From Psychrobacter nivimaris (GTDB taxonomy: Bacteria > Pseudomonadota > Gammaproteobacteria > Pseudomonadales > Moraxellaceae): 64,000 nucleotides of DNA. Under the pieces are notes generated by a model. It saw only the letters and a list, made by a program, of their open reading frames with translations. It was not told where the DNA came from and made no database searches. The DNA lies in assembly GCF_009812035.1 (NCBI RefSeq), contig NZ_VZIZ01000017.1:1-64000 (forward strand). The letters run 5' to 3'. A program made the position numbers and the translations under genes. This document shows positions 255 through 8,706 of the stretch, one piece after another. Every line of letters starts with the position of its first letter. Position 1 is the stretch's first letter.

Positions 255-1166
255 TTAACTTATAGCTGTCACACTCTCCCTTAGACTTCTTTCAATATTA
301 CCGACATTGTAGGGAGCAACACTATTTTTCGACCCACCTTGAGGACTGCTATTGGCCTCATCTGTCTCTACTGGATAAAACTCTTCAGCTACATCCATCA
401 GACCATCGCTATCAATCTCAAAGCAGGAATTGACATAACCTTGTTTAGCAGCTTCCTCTAATGCCGCTTGATCAAAGCCGTGTTCGCTAAGCTCTTTATC
501 AATTGCCTGTGCATCTTGTACGGCTTGTTTAAGCGTCACATCATCACGCAGCGTTAAATCCACAAAGTAAATCGGCGTGCGATAGCTTTGCGTCGTGCTC
601 TTACCTCTAAGCGTGAGTTGCAGTGGCAAACATGACAGCTTGTTGCCGGATACCGCCGCAAAGTAGCTAAGCCTTGCTGCAAGCGTTCGAATACTATTAA
701 AGCCAGTCGTCCGAAAGATAAATGTACCGAGCTCATCGTCTTCAGACAGATTCACGTACAGTCTGCCATACGGCTTACAAGCCCCGCCTTGTGCCAATGG
801 ACAGCGATCAGGTGATGGGCAAGGAAGCTGCTCGACACCATTATTGGTTCTGCGCTGACATTGCTCACCGTCACCCACACATAATGGACGACCTGTCTGT
901 CTATCGAACAGCGTGTACTCAGCACGAAGGTTTAGCTCAGGATCGTTAAACAACATACGTACGGGAATCTGTCTGAGCTTACCGTCGTTATTTGCACGCA
1001 GCTTTGCATCGAGTGGATGATTGATCCAGCCATCCTTGTTTTGAACTTGACTGGTAATGGTGAATTGATCGTCTTTGGCAGGCAGACGTTTGCCATCTTT
1101 TTCAATGACACGACCAATGCTGATACGACCGAGTACGGGCGGGGTTATCGTGAGACCTTTAATCAT
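255..1166 (-). CDS. Cys-rich 'hydrolase or metal-binding' protein of mobile elements
   Basis: This 303-residue protein resembles the family commonly labelled hydrolase or metal-binding protein in SXT/R391-type integrative elements, where it sits beside a YqaJ exonuclease and a DUF932 protein, as here. The N-terminus (MIKGLTITPPVLGRISIGR) and a block with FIFRTTGFNSIRTLAARLS around residues 148-167 fit that family by recall. A Cys cluster (CVGDGEQC, then CPSPDRCPLAQGGACKPYG, about residues 96-134) could hold a metal ion. The C-terminal 80 residues are acidic and less ordered. AGGAAT precedes the ATG. The biochemical role is unknown; the neighbours suggest recombination or single-strand DNA work. 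Confidence 0.7.
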   Translation of the reverse strand: MIKGLTITPPVLGRISIGRVIEKDGKRLPAKDDQFTITSQVQNKDGWINHPLDAKLRANNDGKLRQIPVRMLFNDPELNLRAEYTLFDRQTGRPLCVGDGEQCQRRTNNGVEQLPCPSPDRCPLAQGGACKPYGRLYVNLSEDDELGTFIFRTTGFNSIRTLAARLSYFAAVSGNKLSCLPLQLTLRGKSTTQSYRTPIYFVDLTLRDDVTLKQAVQDAQAIDKELSEHGFDQAALEEAAKQGYVNSCFEIDSDGLMDVAEEFYPVETDEANSSPQGGSKNSVAPYNVGNIERSLRESVTAIS

Positions 1167-1291: not shown

Positions 1292-2434
1292 TTAGTCATT
1301 AAGAATGACAAAGCGTCTACTACCTTGCTTGGTTTTACTAAACTGTATGAGCAATTCAGGATGCGCTTTGATAACCGCTTTGCTATCAAGACCGACACTG
1401 TCTTTCGAGCGCTTCCATGAAATAGCCCCTTTATCAAACACAGCGACCTCATTGTCTTTGATAAGCGTTTGCAGCTGATGCTTAACCTGATCATGACGCT
1501 GTTCGATGTCTTCCATGGATGCGCGGTAGTTTAAGAGTTGCTCAAACAACCTGTTGGCCCCGTCATCGCCTCGTAGATCAACCTTGCTTGATGGTTTAGG
1601 CGTTGGATACAGCTGTTTTAATGCTCTTGCTGCTGACTCGCTATGATCAGGGGTTGGCGGAGTGTCTGTTTCTACGTATTGCCAGAACAGACGCTCATGC
1701 TCCATGATAGACTCGATTAAACGCTCATCACGCTCAACCTTATAAATCTTAGCCTCGTGTCCGCACAGCAGTACGCAGATATGAGCAGCTTGTTTGCCAG
1801 TCACCGCCAGCTGATGTTGTACTTGGCAGGTCACATACAAAGGCACGCCGTCACGCCACAGCTTGGTACCATGTTCACCAGCGGTTTTACACTCTAAAAT
1901 CTGAACCTCATCATTAGTAGTGATGGCATAGTCTAAATTCGCCAGCATAAAGGCGTTATCAGGATCAGGATGCTGCAAGACAGCATTGACACGCCTAACC
2001 TTATTGCCTGTATGCTCTTGGTAGTATTTCGCTACCATGGGTTCAAGCGTATTGCCCCAGTACAGGGGCGAGTAACCCTCGATGCCGTTATTACCACTAG
2101 CATCAATGTTTGAGCTCATGCGTCCTGTCTTGATCATCCATAGCTCAAGCATGGACAAGTATGGGTGGATACCACAAGCGGCAGCAGCATCGGAGCTGCC
2201 AATTCCTTGTCTGCGTACTTGTAGCCAATCTTCACGGCTTAAGTCTTTGGTATTGACCAAACGCTTAGGCGTGGTTGATGTCTTTGGTTGAGCAGTTTTA
2301 TTTTGCTTTAGCGTGATTTCTACTGGTTTGACCTTGGTTTTAGATTTAGCGGTTCGGGACGCTTTGCCTGTCATGACTGAACGTTTAGGTTTTAGCTGAG
2401 TCGTGTTTATATGATTTAATGCGATCAGGTTCAT
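1292..2434 (-). CDS. YqaJ-family (lambda-type) recombination exonuclease
   Basis: A 380-residue protein of the YqaJ/lambda exonuclease family, which resects double-strand ends for phage-type recombination. The first 60 residues are a Lys/Thr-rich tail. The core starts at WLQVRRQGIGSSDAAAACGI (about 70-89), the typical family opening. PD-(D/E)XK-type residues are visible: E131 in the GNTLEP segment, D168 in LANLDY, and E181/K183 in ILECKTA. The C-terminal third, from about 290, has a coiled-coil-like stretch. A strong AAGGAG seven bases before the ATG fixes the start. Phage and SXT systems pair such exonucleases with an annealing protein; none is recognised within the window, so a partner may lie to the left. 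Confidence 0.85.
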   Translation of the reverse strand: MNLIALNHINTTQLKPKRSVMTGKASRTAKSKTKVKPVEITLKQNKTAQPKTSTTPKRLVNTKDLSREDWLQVRRQGIGSSDAAAACGIHPYLSMLELWMIKTGRMSSNIDASGNNGIEGYSPLYWGNTLEPMVAKYYQEHTGNKVRRVNAVLQHPDPDNAFMLANLDYAITTNDEVQILECKTAGEHGTKLWRDGVPLYVTCQVQHQLAVTGKQAAHICVLLCGHEAKIYKVERDERLIESIMEHERLFWQYVETDTPPTPDHSESAARALKQLYPTPKPSSKVDLRGDDGANRLFEQLLNYRASMEDIEQRHDQVKHQLQTLIKDNEVAVFDKGAISWKRSKDSVGLDSKAVIKAHPELLIQFSKTKQGSRRFVILND

Positions 2435-2545: not shown

Positions 2546-3541
2546 CTAGGCAATCAAGCGTAGCGCTTCATCGAGGCTTTTGTCCTTGAGCTTAGCACCA
2601 GCCCCAAACCAGGCGGAATCCAATCGATGATCTTGCGACATCGCACGGCGTTCATGATCAACAAACTCTGTCATCGCATTCAATAGTCCATAAGCCGTGT
2701 CTTTAGCTGACGCCAAATCTGCACCGCGACCTTGACCGTTAAACATGTTCATCACTTGATTCATGGCTTTCGCATTAGGAACCGCATCTTTTTCTTTCTT
2801 AGCGGTATTAAACAGAATCAGGCCATCGTCTTTGACATCGTTAAACACACGGTTTAAGTAGTTGGCCGCTTCTGCTTGCGTGACGCGTCTATTGGTTAAT
2901 TGCTTCATCTCATAGTTAAACGCATCCCACTGGCTGACGGAGACGCCCAATTGCTGCTTGACCTTGTCGGCATCAAAGGTCGTGCTATGCGGTACTTTCA
3001 CCACGCCGCCATTACCGTTCGCAAGGCTGATCGCTAAGGTGTTATTACATACCACGCGAATATTGGTGAACTGTGCCGTGGTGGCAAGCGTACCATCACA
3101 CGCGGTTGCTAGTAGCAAATAGCCATGACTAACATCACCGCCACGTAGTGTTGCGGATTGTCCCGTACGAGCGAGTGCCCAGAACTTGCGACCTCCTTTT
3201 AACACCCCTGCGGTCTCTAATTCAAAGTCAGCTTGTTCAGTCAGATCACGATAAAACTCCAAAATCTCACTTGGTTGTACTTCTTGGTAGCGCTGACTCA
3301 CCACTGATAACGGCTCAAGCGTGTCTGAGCGATACAGTACCTTATTGTTGTCATAAGGCATGATCAGGTTTTGCCCTTTATCGTTGGTTGCCATGTAGCT
3401 GACATCTGAGGATTCGATACGCCAATCCATCCCAGCCTCGCGTGCCCAGACCTCAATCGGCTGTTTGGGGGATAGCTCGTTGCCAAGACCATGCCAAGGG
3501 GTTTCGCCAACGTATGCCATGCTTTCAATTAAATGTGCCAT
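2546..3541 (-). CDS. DUF932 (phage/plasmid-like TIGR03299) protein
   Basis: A 331-residue DUF932 protein. The opening MAHLIESMAYVGETPWHGLG is the signature start of the TIGR03299 phage/plasmid-like group. Later family-like segments include TNIRVVCNNTLAISL (about 160-174) and the C-terminal HRLDSAWFGAGAKLKDKSL. The molecular function is not established. It travels with YqaJ exonucleases in integrative elements and some plasmids, so a role in element recombination or replication is inferred. AAGGAG precedes the ATG, so the start is firm. It sits between two separately terminated genes and is probably transcribed alone. Confidence 0.85.
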   Translation of the reverse strand: MAHLIESMAYVGETPWHGLGNELSPKQPIEVWAREAGMDWRIESSDVSYMATNDKGQNLIMPYDNNKVLYRSDTLEPLSVVSQRYQEVQPSEILEFYRDLTEQADFELETAGVLKGGRKFWALARTGQSATLRGGDVSHGYLLLATACDGTLATTAQFTNIRVVCNNTLAISLANGNGGVVKVPHSTTFDADKVKQQLGVSVSQWDAFNYEMKQLTNRRVTQAEAANYLNRVFNDVKDDGLILFNTAKKEKDAVPNAKAMNQVMNMFNGQGRGADLASAKDTAYGLLNAMTEFVDHERRAMSQDHRLDSAWFGAGAKLKDKSLDEALRLIA

Positions 3542-4085: not shown

Positions 4086-4973
4086 CTAGTGAGTCATGCT
4101 TTGCCCAAAGGTATTCATATTCGGTAAAGACACTTTAAGACGTTGATAGCTACCATCAGGCTTATCAGGACGGGTTAAATACAAAGCAGCATTAACCGCA
4201 TTCTCGACTTCTTGTAAGTTATTACGATGAATCATTCCAATACCAAGTATGCCGCGGCGTGCAAGACCTTCTTTATGCTTTTTAGTATTTAAGATAAAGC
4301 AATAGCCAACGCCTTCAGTAATATCTCGCCATTTTTGTCCCACTTGATCAGCCAAATAGTTGTCCTTGTAATGTTTTGCGCCATCAAAGATCAGCAGCAG
4401 ATGACAATGAAAGCCACCATTTTTTCCACCATGTTCTAATGACCAAGCATAGCTAAGTAAATGCGTAAAACAAGTATCGCCATTATGAATGGCGTCTCTT
4501 AATTTTTTCATATGAAAGTCAAAATCACGAATGGTAATGTGATGACTGATCTCTTGTATGTATTTTAAATCCACTCGAACAAACAACAATCTTGAATGGT
4601 CTGATATGAGGGTTCTGATATTAAGCTCTAAGTTTTTGCCATTTTGATTACTCTGATAACGCCACGCACTGTAGTCTTTTTTAATCGCCTTCTCATAACC
4701 TGACAGTAACTGAATAAACTGCACCGTCTTTTCATCGTTCCAAAATACGTTATAAGCGTAAGCGTCACCAATAATCATATTGGTGCTTTCTATAAATGCC
4801 TGGATAGGTTTTGAGTATCTGAATTCAGAATCAAGGCTAATCATGAACGAGTAATAGAACTCGTTCAATTGACTTTTGATTTGTTGGAAATTGATGGTAC
4901 CAAATAATACATCTCTAACCAGTCTGTCGACGTTAGAGATAAGCTGTGAGTGATTAACAGGTGAGTAGATCAT
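4086..4973 (-). CDS. HUH-type Rep-like protein (inovirus Gp2 / YagK-YfjJ family)
   Basis: A 295-residue protein resembling inovirus Gp2 and the YagK/YfjJ C-terminal family found in cryptic prophages. These are taken to be rolling-circle-type initiators or relaxase relatives. The HUH motif is seen as GGFHCHLLLIF (HCH at residues 189-191). A preceding segment, LLFVRVDLKY (129-138), fits the first catalytic strand, and NAALYLTRPDK (261-271) fits the family's Tyr-containing helix, with Y265 a candidate nucleophile. The start is supported by AGGAAAG. It is transcribed away from a 435-base gap full of palindromes, where a Rep would be expected to act. Family membership is by pattern; nicking activity is inferred. 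Confidence 0.75.
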   Translation of the reverse strand: MIYSPVNHSQLISNVDRLVRDVLFGTINFQQIKSQLNEFYYSFMISLDSEFRYSKPIQAFIESTNMIIGDAYAYNVFWNDEKTVQFIQLLSGYEKAIKKDYSAWRYQSNQNGKNLELNIRTLISDHSRLLFVRVDLKYIQEISHHITIRDFDFHMKKLRDAIHNGDTCFTHLLSYAWSLEHGGKNGGFHCHLLLIFDGAKHYKDNYLADQVGQKWRDITEGVGYCFILNTKKHKEGLARRGILGIGMIHRNNLQEVENAVNAALYLTRPDKPDGSYQRLKVSLPNMNTFGQSMTH

Positions 4974-5051
4974 GGCTTGCTTTCCTATGAATATAAAGTT
5001 GAATGGGTGCTACATATATTCATAGGGTTGTGTATTTTTTTACTGTTCAGT

Positions 5052-5066
5052 GCGGATAGCATCCGC
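5052..5066. repeat. hairpin GCGGAT-agc-ATCCGC
   Basis: A perfect six-base inverted repeat with a three-base loop, GC-rich within AT-rich surroundings. It lies 79 bases upstream of the Rep-like start codon. Confidence 0.6.
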
Positions 5067-5083
5067 CTTAGTTAAATAGTACC

Positions 5084-5100
5084 TAATATAACTTATATTA
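5084..5100. repeat. 17-base AT palindrome
   Basis: TAATATAA-C-TTATATTA is a perfect inverted repeat around one central base. It could be an operator or an easily melted element. Confidence 0.6.
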
Positions 5101-5170
5101 TCGTACCGTCTCTTCATGAGTATCCAAAGGCAGGATTTGTGTAAGCCAGCGTTGGGTTTATGAAAATCAC

Positions 5171-5191
5171 AACACAGTAATTCGCTGTGTT
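5171..5191. repeat. hairpin AACACAG/CTGTGTT
   Basis: Seven-base perfect arms with a seven-base loop, in the middle of the divergent spacer. Confidence 0.5.
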
Positions 5192-5298
5192 TTAGGGAAG
5201 AAGGTGAAGATAGAGTTAGCTGATCGTCATTGATGTTACTTTATAATAATCTACTAGCTAAAGCATATATAATTCCTACAACGTGCTAAAGTTATACC

Positions 5299-5342
5299 GA
5301 CGTTTTAATGACGTTTTAACGATGTTTTTCTGACGTAAATAA
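5299..5342. repeat. degenerate 11-base tandem array (iteron-like)
   Basis: Four successive 11-base units begin GACGTTTTAAT, GACGTTTTAAC, GATGTTTTTCT and GACGTAAATAA. The first two differ at one base; the last two are diverged. A one-turn period upstream of a gene with a ribbon-helix-helix-like segment suggests cooperative binding and autoregulation, or replication iterons. Confidence 0.5.
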
Positions 5343-5408
5343 TGGTATTTTAATAATAGAGAATTAATAAAAAATAATTTACTTTTAATTATTATATTGA
5401 GATAAATA

Positions 5409-6770
5409 ATGAGAAATGTGCGTAGAAATAGTAGCGAGATTTTGATAAAGGAAGAAGAGTATATTGAAAAAAAGGTAAATGCTCTTAGCGTCTACAATGT
5501 GTATTGGTGCCTTTCTGAGTTGAGAAAGCGTGGTCAACTATCAACAGGAACTGTATTGAAAAATGACTCCTTTTGTAAATTACAGTTAATAAGGATTTTA
5601 AAAGAGCGACGCTACAGCGCTAGAAGTTTAAATACATTTTTAGAAGTCAGTGCTGAAAACAGTATTCCTTTGTCATACGTCAATTGGTTTTACGACGATA
5701 CAAGAGCTGCACTGTGGTTAAAGATGGTGTTAAGAAATACTATCAACTCAAGTGAATCCATCATCACAGAATCTGATATATCAATTTTTATTCATGATGT
5801 TATTTTTAATAGAAAGCTGCTAATTTCGAATAAAAAAATTGTTGAGAGAAGTAGCGACTCACAAGTTGCATTGAAAAAGATAACTTTAGAATTACTAAAA
5901 GACACTTACCTTCTCAGCCAAGTAAATTCGAAAGATATTAGATGGCTTACTAATAATGGCGGTAGGGTTAAGATAAACCATATGTATCAATACATGAATA
6001 AAATGCATGATCTTAACAACTTGAAAATAAATAAAGAGAATAAAAAAAAGAACGGAGGACGAAAAATACACATGAATAAGGCTGGGTGCCAACAGGCTTT
6101 AATTTGTTCTGGCACTATTAAATTTAAAGAAACAGATACAGCTATGCGGCTTTGTCACATACTGGCATCACTTGATTATTGGATGTTCGATACCTATTGG
6201 CTTTACAAAGATGGCGACGTTGTAGACAGAGAAACGGCTGATAATAGAGGCCTCTTTATTAGTAATATGGAAGACGTTTGGAATTCGAAGCAAAGGCGTG
6301 ATCGCAATAAAATCAAGAAAAATCAGGGTATAGATCTCACAAGCGACAATAAGAAAAACCTAAAGTATCTTGCTAAGGCTTGTGGTAAGACACAGCGTGA
6401 AGTGTTAAATGACTTAGTTGAATCTGCTTACAGTCAAATGAGAGGTCAGGACATTCAGCTAGACCCATCTTTTCCTAATCAATATAAGGCTTTCGATAAG
6501 ATAACTCTAGAGAAGCCCTCCAGCTTGCCAAGCGAACATACTGAGAGAGAGGTCATTTCTGAAGACACTTTTCTAACTAAAGATAAGCAAGAGTTAAGTA
6601 GCGATTATGATGCAGATCCAGTTGATCAATCGAGATACGATAATGAAGAGGTGCCAGCTGAGACTATTACACCCAAACAAGAAGTTCAACCATTTTACCC
6701 TAAAGTAAGTAATAGAAAACCAGCTGAAGATAAAGCCGATACTAATACAGAAAATTATAATCAGTTATGA
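5409..6770 (+). CDS. unrecognised island protein with ribbon-helix-helix-like segment
   Basis: A 453-residue protein I cannot assign. The first 200 residues look helical and basic. Around 205-222 is a Lys/Asn-rich linker (NKENKKKNGGRK), then a more hydrophobic block (MRLCHILASLDYWMFDTYWLY, about 246-266). Residues 307-343 (a short strand GIDLT, then helices containing KNLKYLAKACGKTQREVLNDLVE) fit the ribbon-helix-helix pattern. The last 90 residues are acidic and low in complexity, with many Glu, Asp, Pro and Ser. The gene is AT-rich relative to its flanks and has only a weak ribosome site. It lies between the Rep-like gene and the integrase, a common cargo position. Replication accessory, transcriptional regulator or defence protein are all possible. 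Confidence 0.6.
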   Translation: MRNVRRNSSEILIKEEEYIEKKVNALSVYNVYWCLSELRKRGQLSTGTVLKNDSFCKLQLIRILKERRYSARSLNTFLEVSAENSIPLSYVNWFYDDTRAALWLKMVLRNTINSSESIITESDISIFIHDVIFNRKLLISNKKIVERSSDSQVALKKITLELLKDTYLLSQVNSKDIRWLTNNGGRVKINHMYQYMNKMHDLNNLKINKENKKKNGGRKIHMNKAGCQQALICSGTIKFKETDTAMRLCHILASLDYWMFDTYWLYKDGDVVDRETADNRGLFISNMEDVWNSKQRRDRNKIKKNQGIDLTSDNKKNLKYLAKACGKTQREVLNDLVESAYSQMRGQDIQLDPSFPNQYKAFDKITLEKPSSLPSEHTEREVISEDTFLTKDKQELSSDYDADPVDQSRYDNEEVPAETITPKQEVQPFYPKVSNRKPAEDKADTNTENYNQL

Positions 6771-6970: not shown

Positions 6971-8332
6971 TCAGTTATTCTCAATGTAGACTTGCAGCTC
7001 ATCAGCTGTGATACCTTGCTCTAATAGCGCTTTGATCAGATCTTGCTTATCAGCATTTTGTAATGAGTCAGGACGTTTGCTTTCTAATGAATGCTCAATC
7101 TGCTGACGAGCAGTTTGGAAGTCCACAACTTCGCCTTTGTCTCTTAGTAAGTCTAAAAAATCAGCCCAAACCTGCATGATTTTACGGCGTTCTTCTAAGT
7201 GTTGCGCATGGTTATACACTGCGCGAATGCTACTTTTCTTATCATGGGCCATTTGCTTTTCGATCGCATCGCCCATGTAGCCAAGCTCGTTCAGATTGGT
7301 TGAAGCGATGTGGCGAAAGCCATGTCCTGTCTGTTTACCAGCATACCCTAGTATATCTAGCGCGTTATTGATGAATTCTTCGCTGTACGGCTGATGCATG
7401 CCCGTGTGATAGAAAACATATTCATATTCCCCTGTGATGGCTTTCATTTCTTCTAGCACTGCGAGCATTTGGTCTGATAGTGGTACGACATGCTTACGCG
7501 CAATTTTGAGATTGTCGATATCAACACGCCATAAACGGTTAGCAAAATCAATGTGTGACCATTTCATCATACGCAGCTCAATGGTGCGACAAAATGAATA
7601 GGCTAAGAATTTCATACCTAATCTAGTTTGGTCGTGACCATGATAACCCTCGATAGCTTGTAGTAGGCCAGGCAGCTCACTGATATCGACATGCTTCATG
7701 TGCTGACTTTTGGCTTTAGGATAGAGTTCCTTTAGATCATCGATTGGGTTTTGCTCAATGATACGCTCGCGTTTGGCACGCTTCAAAACATTAGCAACCA
7801 AATCAATAGTGCGTCTGGTAACCTCACGTGGTGGTTCACCGTTTTTGTTCACACGCTTTTCGATCTCGTCTGCCATTGATCGGCAGTCTTCAAAGCTTAC
7901 ATCCTTTAAAGCAATGCCTTCAAAATGAGATAACACGTCTTTATGCATACGGTTATAGTCTTGCTGATAGGTACGTGGCTTGACGTTACGTTGTCGTTCA
8001 GCAAGCCAGTCTAGCGCATAGTCATTAAATTTTTGGGCATGAATATTGGCAAGCTTATCTTGCCGTTTTTTATTTTTTGGATCAACACCGTTAGCCAATA
8101 ATGCTTTGATCTCAGTATTGGCTTGTCTGGCCTGAGATAGCGACATGAGTGGATAGGTACCAAGAGTCATACTTTTTTGCTTACCATCAAAGCGATAAAC
8201 GCTTATCCATGATTTTGTACCCGTGCTACGCACAAAAAGCTGTAATCCATACTTGTCAGTATACTTGTCAGGCCGCAAAGGTATGCACTTCTCACTTGGT
8301 TTAAGCTTACGAATTTTGGTATCACTTAGCAT
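6971..8332 (-). CDS. P4-type tyrosine integrase (DUF4102 N-domain)
   Basis: A 453-residue site-specific recombinase that inserts and excises the element at the neighbouring tRNA-Ser. Residues 1-90 fit the DUF4102 arm-binding domain (MLSDTKIRKLKP..., SWISVYRFDGKQKSMTLGTYPLMSLSQAR). A SAM-like core-binding domain follows (about 100-190), then the catalytic domain. Catalytic residues visible are R249 (FCRTIELR), H337 and R340 (HGFR), H363 (MAHDKK) and Y373 (RAVYNH). The length is somewhat above the usual 400-430. The start codon overlaps a TTGGTCTA octamer repeated upstream, suggesting autoregulation. The gene reads away from the tRNA, as usual for this class. Confidence 0.92.
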   Translation of the reverse strand: MLSDTKIRKLKPSEKCIPLRPDKYTDKYGLQLFVRSTGTKSWISVYRFDGKQKSMTLGTYPLMSLSQARQANTEIKALLANGVDPKNKKRQDKLANIHAQKFNDYALDWLAERQRNVKPRTYQQDYNRMHKDVLSHFEGIALKDVSFEDCRSMADEIEKRVNKNGEPPREVTRRTIDLVANVLKRAKRERIIEQNPIDDLKELYPKAKSQHMKHVDISELPGLLQAIEGYHGHDQTRLGMKFLAYSFCRTIELRMMKWSHIDFANRLWRVDIDNLKIARKHVVPLSDQMLAVLEEMKAITGEYEYVFYHTGMHQPYSEEFINNALDILGYAGKQTGHGFRHIASTNLNELGYMGDAIEKQMAHDKKSSIRAVYNHAQHLEERRKIMQVWADFLDLLRDKGEVVDFQTARQQIEHSLESKRPDSLQNADKQDLIKALLEQGITADELQVYIENN

Positions 8333-8599: not shown

Positions 8600-8615
8600 T
8601 AAGATTTTATAAGAT

Positions 8616-8706
8616 TGGCGGTGAAGGAGGGATTCGAACCCTCGATACGCTATGAACGTATACACACTTTCCAGGCGTGCGGTTTCAGCCACTCACCCAC
8701 TTCACC
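8616..8706 (-). tRNA. tRNA-Ser(GGA), likely integration site
   Basis: The complement folds as a class II tRNA. The acceptor stem is GGTGAAG/CTTCACC, the anticodon loop reads CTGGAAA with anticodon GGA, a long variable arm follows, the T loop is GGTTCGAATCC, the discriminator is G and CCA is encoded. It closely resembles enterobacterial tRNA-Ser(GGA). The 3' half borders the integrase side, so attB is expected within its T-arm/acceptor end. No second copy of that end occurs in 1-8615, so the other attachment site lies outside the window. Confidence 0.95.

Follow-up and report, generated by a model that had tools for sequence, protein, structure and literature searches.

Among ribbon-helix-helix (RHH) proteins, CopG pairs with RepB, and MatP consists of a helical N-terminal region followed by the RHH. 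For the ParR/parC partition systems, the accessible part of a published account describes 11-bp repeats in plasmid R1, family-specific arrays and a typing of compatibility for plasmids whose Reps are alike (PMC9426499). On R388, an array with an 11-bp period surrounds the stb promoter, and StbA together with the repeats suffices for stability without StbB, as stated in the available sections of the corresponding report (PMC3098194). Among the matches listed in our literature search, the closest element class in print is that of the Pseudomonas islands with an integrase, AlpA, YqaJ and a Gp2-like protein; in the part of the paper at hand, a tyrosine integrase, YqaJ and an inovirus Gp2-like protein are placed in the common part of islands I23, I44 and I55, and the terms 'DUF932' and 'ribbon-helix-helix' are absent from its main text (PMC12595487). 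In titles and opening lines of abstracts among the same matches, a cassette of RHH gene and repeat array is not described, and these partial texts do not explain by what means such islands avoid one another or keep their HUH Rep under control.

Here we analysed a stretch of 64,000 nucleotides from Psychrobacter nivimaris (contig NZ_VZIZ01000017.1), referred to as the window, with respect to a gene encoding a 453-residue protein, Q453. The genes around it are arranged in the order Gp3-like, YqaJ, DUF932, zinc-ribbon-like and HUH Rep (all on the reverse strand), Q453 (forward), integrase (reverse) and tRNA-Ser (Table 1). As in I55-like Gp2/YqaJ islands, an integrase, YqaJ and a Gp2-like Rep occur together, and att repeats lie at a tRNA. 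The window shows a single element end and one att copy, the contig starts at position 1 and the far end lies beyond it; both repeats are seen in a sister element in another genome (G246), where the 22-bp repeat at the tRNA-Ser 3' end recurs ~38 kb away (107787, 145733).

Table 1. Features of the element and of the Q453 locus, in window coordinates.
Feature	Position	Strand	Basis or remark
Gp3-like (recombination directionality factor-like) protein	255..1166	-	PF18897
YqaJ / RecE-like exonuclease	1292..2434	-	family match
DUF932 core protein	2546..3541	-	family match
Zinc-ribbon-like core protein, 103 aa	3610..3921	-	sub-threshold Pfam Zn-ribbon; place kept in Psychrobacter loci
HUH Rep, YagK_YfjJ_C / inovirus Gp2-like	4086..4973	-	PF11726, 29.8 bits (cut-off 25.8); His-Cys-His motif visible
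rep-side intergenic part	4974..5224	.	tracks Rep type; conserved in loci with like Reps
Perfect 12-bp inverted repeat, 19-nt loop, beside rep start	4984..5026	.	seven-locus alignment
GCGGAT-AGC-ATCCGC hairpin	5052..5066	.	stem kept in 6/7 aligned loci
Q453-side intergenic part	5225..5408	.	varies with RHH type; homology break in seven loci
Four 11-bp iterons GACGTTTTAAT GACGTTTTAAC GATGTTTTTCT GACGTAAATAA, presumed Q453 binding array	5299..5342	+	family-wide periodicity
Q453 (453-aa RHH protein gene)	5409..6770	+	open ORF, ATG start; homologues elsewhere
Helical module 1, ~residues 86-172 (limits by eye)	5664..5924	+	hhalign match to module 2 in relatives
Helical module 2, ~residues 173-300 (limits by eye), runs into RHH	5925..6308	+	hhalign
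RHH segment, residues 303-346 (predicted)	6315..6446	+	AlphaFold2 helices; VIA-align to CopG, PutA
Disordered acidic tail, residues 355-453	6471..6767	+	pLDDT under 50; composition of 352-453
Tyrosine integrase	6971..8332	-	PF13356, PF00589
22-bp att core, tRNA-Ser 3' end	8609..8630	-	same 22 bp flank related element in G246
tRNA-Ser	8616-8706		adjoins integrase end of element

All loci compared were picked because they carry a Q453 homologue. The first set comprised 40 regions out of a longer family match list and includes one, L051, from the genome of the window itself. Homologues of Q453 and Rep were both present, and always divergent, in 39 of the 40; in the exception (L069) Rep is split and an ORF for the Q453 homologue was not found. 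The divergent pair recurred in 38 of 40 loci fetched later, the other two (L191, L196) lying at contig ends. Among 12 distant loci, neither Psychrobacter nor solitary Marinomonas copies, nine have a divergent YagK_YfjJ_C Rep, sometimes with a gene between (L082, L089, L093-L097, L100 and L101, with L095 from a genome of the genus Marinomonas), whereas in L085, L091 and L092 we saw no such Rep in the ORFs up to 3 kb away. In six distant loci (L092, L094, L095, L097, L100 and L101), a gene of ~430-580 aa adjoins the RHH gene in divergent orientation, in five of them between the RHH gene and Rep. Psychrobacter loci hardly depart from the order Rep, zinc-ribbon, DUF932, YqaJ, Gp3, which Acinetobacter loci follow more loosely. 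An integrase lies close on the far side of Q453 in 34 of 72 loci, with 31 lacking it there and seven undecided. The first-pass annotation had described Q453 as lying next to an integrase and facing a divergent HUH Rep, which the Pfam matches to both neighbours bear out. It had also called this the cargo position; Q453 is not cargo, as its place beside Rep is fixed across loci. Whether homologues always sit by Gp2/YfjJ-like Rep genes, which it had put forward for a survey, can be affirmed for nearly all loci of both 40-locus sets, the solitary copies of Marinomonas described below being the exception.

Q453 is kept as a protein in other genomes and is therefore not a chance ORF. Matches were found in 55 of 105 Psychrobacter genomes (E <= 1e-4), making Q453 islands common in the genus, in 45 of 299 genomes of the same family (E <= 1e-3, many partial) and in 24 of 293 genomes of the same order, five of which belong to its own genus. 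In HLPLT-type alignments to Q453, the named matches include Psychrobacter, Acinetobacter, Marinomonas, Vibrio, Photobacterium, Shewanella and Alloalcanivorax. As the first-pass annotation had it, the protein resembles no known family: in Pfam, NCBIfam, PHROGs and PADLOC, not one curated family scored above its cut-off and no characterised one matched over the full length, PADLOC models gave no family at E <= 1, and plasmid, phage and viral-contig collections contained no relatives, the viral scan reaching close relatives only. Matches to PH_5 (19.9 bits, cut-off 30) and RepC_IncLM (13.7 bits, cut-off 80) were discarded. We were likewise unconvinced by YAR1 (E 0.07, in the tail) from the PDB sequence search and by eIF3 subunit C (E 0.01) and the regulator Reg576 (E 0.32) from the PDB profile search. 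Sub-cut-off matches of relatives to unrelated models, such as DUF1264 in L095 and RE_BstXI in L097, were taken as chance. RepB-RCR_reg (PF10723) stayed below its cut-off of 21 in L083 and L094 (13.2 and 13.3 bits) and did not match Q453 itself. Individual relatives matched phrog_3180, an Arc-like repressor, and phrog_3887, a transcriptional regulator. In five homologues (L035, L037, L038, L040 and L041), the tails are near-identical in places despite very different N-terminal parts, a pattern that we read as mosaic recombination within the gene. Decaying copies also occur, with Q453 split in L034 and L183, Rep in L069 and DUF932 in L099.

The AlphaFold2 model of Q453 agrees with the layout first read from the letters, namely a long helical N-terminal region, a strand-helix-helix segment at 307-343 and an acidic disordered tail. 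Residues 4-350 are mostly helical with pLDDT mostly above 80, a long helix (274-305) is followed by helices 312-325 and 329-346, and pLDDT falls under 50 at 355-453; the tail (352-453) contains 23 D/E vs 12 K/R. When residues 172-352 were modelled separately (mean pLDDT 88.7), rows 1-13 of VIA-align (Z 4.8-6.1) comprised MazE-mt9, the PutA DNA-binding domain, Rv0298, CopG, CopASO, TacA1 and MatP; the antitoxins among them (MazE-mt9, Rv0298, CopASO and TacA1) we take to be of the RHH class. CopG rows had Z 5.5-6.0 and rmsd 1.9-2.0 over 40-42 residues, the best being 1ea4_F (Z 6.0, rmsd 1.9 over 42), where the tool itself rates a Z of about 6 as middling and the first clearly unrelated row stands at Z 4.2. 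The whole model matched TacA2 (Z 4.2, rmsd 1.8 over 45). Foldseek alone gave no significant match for either model, and Pfam RHH models did not match Q453 at E <= 1; in three relatives (L089, L094 and L095), RHH_1, RHH_3 and RHH_7 scored 14.6-17.9 bits, below their curated cut-offs of 20.5-27. From these models, all of them monomers, residues ~307-351 are predicted to adopt an RHH fold, with the ~45-residue strand-helix-helix arrangement of the MetJ/Arc/CopG superfamily, in the place where the segment had been pointed out.

The first reading of this DNA mentioned neither a repeat within the helical region nor the upstream array and cassette exchange described below. Profile-profile comparison (hhalign) of modules 1 and 2, ~85 residues each, in relatives gave probabilities of 95.0 (L045), 96.9 (L082) and 77.0 (L048), by which the helical modules of Q453 appear to be tandem repeats. 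In the short homologues L094, L095 and L097, judged by eye, only module 2 and the RHH are left.

The window's four iterons lie 67-110 bp 5' of the Q453 start codon, the fourth, GACGTAAATAA, being the most degenerate. Autocorrelation of ~115 bp upstream of Q453 in 39 loci gave z-scores of 10.0, 8.8 and 3.6 at lags 11, 22 and 33, and lag 11 remained at 9.5 once the seven strongest loci were removed. A second set of 33 loci, added later, gave 9.4, 9.1 and 5.7, and dinucleotide shuffles of all 72 gave 13.9, 11.1 and 6.7; these z-scores, like our shuffles and permutations throughout, ignore kinship of the loci, and the z values are inflated because the loci are related. From the first set we removed L034, whose gene is split, L057 and L058, which we judged to duplicate the L051 element, the distant L082, and L069, which lacks a pair. 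From the second we removed the broken L174, L179, which scores identically to L166, L192 at a contig end, L195, which may be truncated, L197, located where L039 is, and the unpaired L191 and L196. The lag-11 excess was 0.065 for the 72 Q453 upstream regions vs -0.010 for control regions upstream of 349 other genes in these loci, with a maximum of 0.003 in 2000 control resamples. Taken singly, 38 of the 72 loci exceeded the 95th percentile of controls and 34 did not. Lag-11 autocorrelation was not raised on the rep side or in the middle of the same intergenic regions in the 39 and 33 loci. The signal is weaker outside Psychrobacter, with lag-11 z of 2.8 in 11 loci of other families and 1.4 in four Acinetobacter loci. 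In some HLPLT-type loci (L065, L098, L045 and L070), a palindrome like AATATCACGAGTGATATT lies near the start besides the 11-bp array.

With RHH types assigned by eye from the strand motif, the iteron unit was found to differ between types: the window's type has (G/A)AYGTTTTAAT-like units, the LLLT type units that contain TACT, and part of the KIYKKN type CTAGAAATAAA-like units. Every type singly, as well as the mixed rest, had a lag-11 z of at least 3.4. We do not claim degeneration of the RHH in L040 and L041, as the small 'other' group that holds both keeps the signal.

The two halves of the intergenic region proved to follow different genes. In an alignment of the window with six loci whose Rep is 85-91% identical to the window's, ~250 bp beside rep are common to all and similarity is lost at ~5225, past which only like RHH types agree. 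The arms of the 12-bp inverted repeat in this common part are identical in six of the seven loci, with one change in L032; the rep-side block, which also contains the GC hairpin, is a candidate Rep origin or rep leader. Shared 7-mers on the Q453 side numbered 10.1-15.3 for loci of the same RHH type vs 5.7-6.1 for different types, irrespective of Rep, and those on the rep side 50.5-56.2 where Reps were at least 75% identical vs 9.1-10.0 otherwise, irrespective of RHH type. Label permutation of this double dissociation gave 0/1000 vs 137/1000. Because of the homology break and the double dissociation, we assign the array to the RHH gene and conclude from the aligned loci that gene and array are exchanged together as a cassette against a conserved rep side. 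The array does not follow Rep type, and we rejected it as a Rep-binding origin. Median pairwise identity was 87% for Gp3, 85% for DUF932, 81% for YqaJ, 81% for the integrase (16 loci only), 46% for the zinc-ribbon protein, 44% for Rep and 20% for Q453. Unlike its neighbours on the DUF932 side, the zinc-ribbon-like protein is thus about as variable as Rep.

Nineteen genomes carry two or three elements, giving 23 co-resident pairs within the total of 72 loci; left out were the Acinetobacter loci, L069, G264 (scores as G212), L191, L196 and L197, as well as L183, L192 and L195 for short RHH segments. Mean identity of the RHH segments was 19.7% for co-resident pairs vs 26.2% between genomes (permutation P 0.009), and none of the 23 co-resident pairs reached 35% vs 396 of 2533 pairs between genomes. 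The count at >= 40% gave P 0.028 and the mean identity of whole Q453 P 0.042; at the whole-protein threshold of >= 40%, 0 of 24 co-resident vs 172 of 2751 pairs (~1.5 expected) was not significant, nor was the single co-resident pair with the same RHH group label (3.2 expected, P 0.14). Rep of co-resident elements showed no avoidance (P 0.8). Since 18 of the 23 pairs combine one element with and one without an integrase beside Q453, site effects are just partly controlled, and integrase type as the cause of the result likewise in part, by stratifying for integrase presence (mean identity, P 0.024; count of pairs >= 35%, P 0.047). The avoidance is modest in size and, being suggestive and not proof, points to type-specific exclusion.

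In the genus Marinomonas, 27 of 48 genomes have a Q453 match, 25 of them long. In the six loci whose neighbours were checked (L083, L084, L086, L087, L088 and L090), the Q453 gene is present and no Rep or core gene was found in 20 kb. Upstream of 16 Marinomonas loci (among L130-L150), lag-11 z was 5.5, with a lag-32 peak as large (6.3), in loci that are vertically related. The median dN/dS of these 16 was 0.09, from the 49 usable of 120 pairs and with synonymous sites near saturation. With the solitary copies, a host may have taken over the gene that once controlled an element.

Taken together, these observations lead us to a tentative model, to which we give somewhat less than an even chance, in which Q453 is a self-regulating, array-binding protein that sets the immunity or compatibility type of its element, binding and exclusion both being our inference. 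Of the three roles suggested in the first-pass annotation, namely replication partner, element regulator and defence protein, the regulator fits best, and the defence protein finds no PADLOC match. Q453, with its two tandem helical modules and C-terminal RHH, would be the core control protein of an HUH-Rep integrative element, working in the manner of an immunity repressor or of a ParR/CopG-type RHH regulator with its own iterons. Judging from periodicity and covariation, its dimers may sit side by side, one turn apart, on the 11-bp array just 5' of the gene, and from this position they would repress the gene itself. A resident Q453 could also bind a like array in trans, so that the divergent Q453/rep control region of an incoming element of the same type would be silenced and its establishment blocked. 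Any element with the same array would be bound in trans, and gene and array would therefore move together; they travel jointly as what may be a specificity cassette, by whose exchange elements probably diversify. A direct block of rep by Q453 is conjecture on our part, as the array lies on Q453's side of the intergenic region, with a candidate rep promoter in the other block, and lag 11 is not raised near rep. Promoter-like matches were at shuffle level (15 found vs 15.8 expected).

Q453 might instead be a solo partition protein that pairs or tethers excised, Rep-replicated circles through the array as a centromere, making it a motor-free determinant of partition incompatibility as in one reading of R388 StbA. 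The R388 stbDRs (9-bp repeats with 2 bp spacing, hence an 11-bp period) act through StbA and may need no motor, according to the available sections of that report (PMC3098194), and in the accessible account of ParR/parC the R1 protein requires at least two 11-bp repeats and, for C. perfringens plasmids whose Reps are alike, compatibility goes by ParR/parC family (PMC9426499). A genome with two elements whose Reps are 99% and Q453 proteins 24% identical (G102, L042 and L067) would also suit partition. Integrated elements, by contrast, need no partition, partition incompatibility should not remove an integrated element, and the six checked solitary copies of Marinomonas have no adjoining element to partition. 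We prefer immunity and regard partition as unlikely, since the elements that share a genome are integrated and Marinomonas has retained solitary copies, although in function ParR/parC and StbA/stbDR come near to Q453 and its array. RHH proteins act as accessory factors in relaxosomes, and Q453 could similarly aid loading or nicking by Rep at an array within the replication origin. The pairing with an HUH Rep is steady in both 40-locus sets and in nine of the 12 distant loci, all of them chosen for the homologue, but array and Q453 vary freely against Rep (in 44 locus pairs Reps are at least 75% identical and RHH types different), the DNA that does track Rep is the other half of the intergenic region, and Marinomonas retains gene and upstream signal in loci where no Rep was found, which makes such a role quite improbable.

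It is also conceivable, if distinctly unlikely, that RHH and array serve only the expression of their own gene, the real function, such as toxin, defence or cargo control, residing in the helical modules and tail. The conservation of the modules as a tandem repeat would fit, as would the finding that in-register pairs of the window-type pattern (at most two mismatches) occur solely at the own promoter in four of six scanned sequences, the other two having one extra pair each (41285/41307 in the window, 11889/11900 in L036); left unexplained would be the cassette exchange and the dissimilarity of co-resident proteins, and PADLOC offers no match for such a function. Another reading, which we consider very improbable, is that the periodicity reflects a phasing common to AT-rich bacterial DNA and that chance in sampling produced the co-residence result. 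The upstream regions are 75% AT, and with related loci z-scores and permutations overstate independence; against this, 72 AT-matched control upstream regions (75% AT) gave a lag-11 excess of -0.0085 vs 0.065, the second set of loci agrees with the first, and rep side and middle are flat. For the array itself we dropped this artefact as strongly disfavoured by the dinucleotide shuffles and control upstream regions.

Going further than the immunity model for Q453 itself, we entertain, as a possible but rather doubtful extension, an undescribed form of immunity typing in widespread HUH-Rep elements, in which Q453 and its private array would be an exchangeable cassette that, whatever the Rep type, determines which elements are able to coexist in a cell, and the solitary Marinomonas copies, with upstream arrays and under purifying selection, might be host-owned immunity to elements of this class. 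The swappable pair of Q453 and repeats may be the tag by which related islands distinguish each other, and protein and matching array would form a compact specificity determinant that could serve to type islands. Through its natural swaps, the cassette already comes in matching and non-matching pairs, suited to assays of binding and compatibility in laboratory strains.

Compared with described systems, the element differs from islands I23, I44 and I55 in that, in the part of their description at hand, AlpA and an HTH protein are named and no RHH/iteron cassette (PMC12595487). StbA and the stbDRs of R388, as far as the available sections describe them, belong to a different kind of element and resemble Q453 by the array, which has an 11-bp period and lies at the own promoter. 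ParMRC systems (type II) share with Q453 an RHH protein, here a predicted fold, and an upstream direct-repeat array; unlike them, Q453 has a large helical N-terminus, its elements are integrated, and no ParM-like gene was present among the six scanned window neighbours (Rep, integrase, DUF932, YqaJ, Gp3-like and zinc-ribbon-like). MatP, a chromosomal Ter-domain protein, covers most of the 172-352 model in VIA-align (7nyw_J, Z 6.0; 3veb_A, Z 5.3), but at rmsd 5.8-6.8, so that only the RHH part of the likeness is convincing. The RHH segment of pMV158 CopG superposes on that of Q453, and its gene likewise belongs to an HUH-Rep replicon; whereas the CopG chains matched in VIA-align comprise 43-45 residues, Q453 adds ~300 residues of helical modules and a tail, and its gene is divergent to rep.
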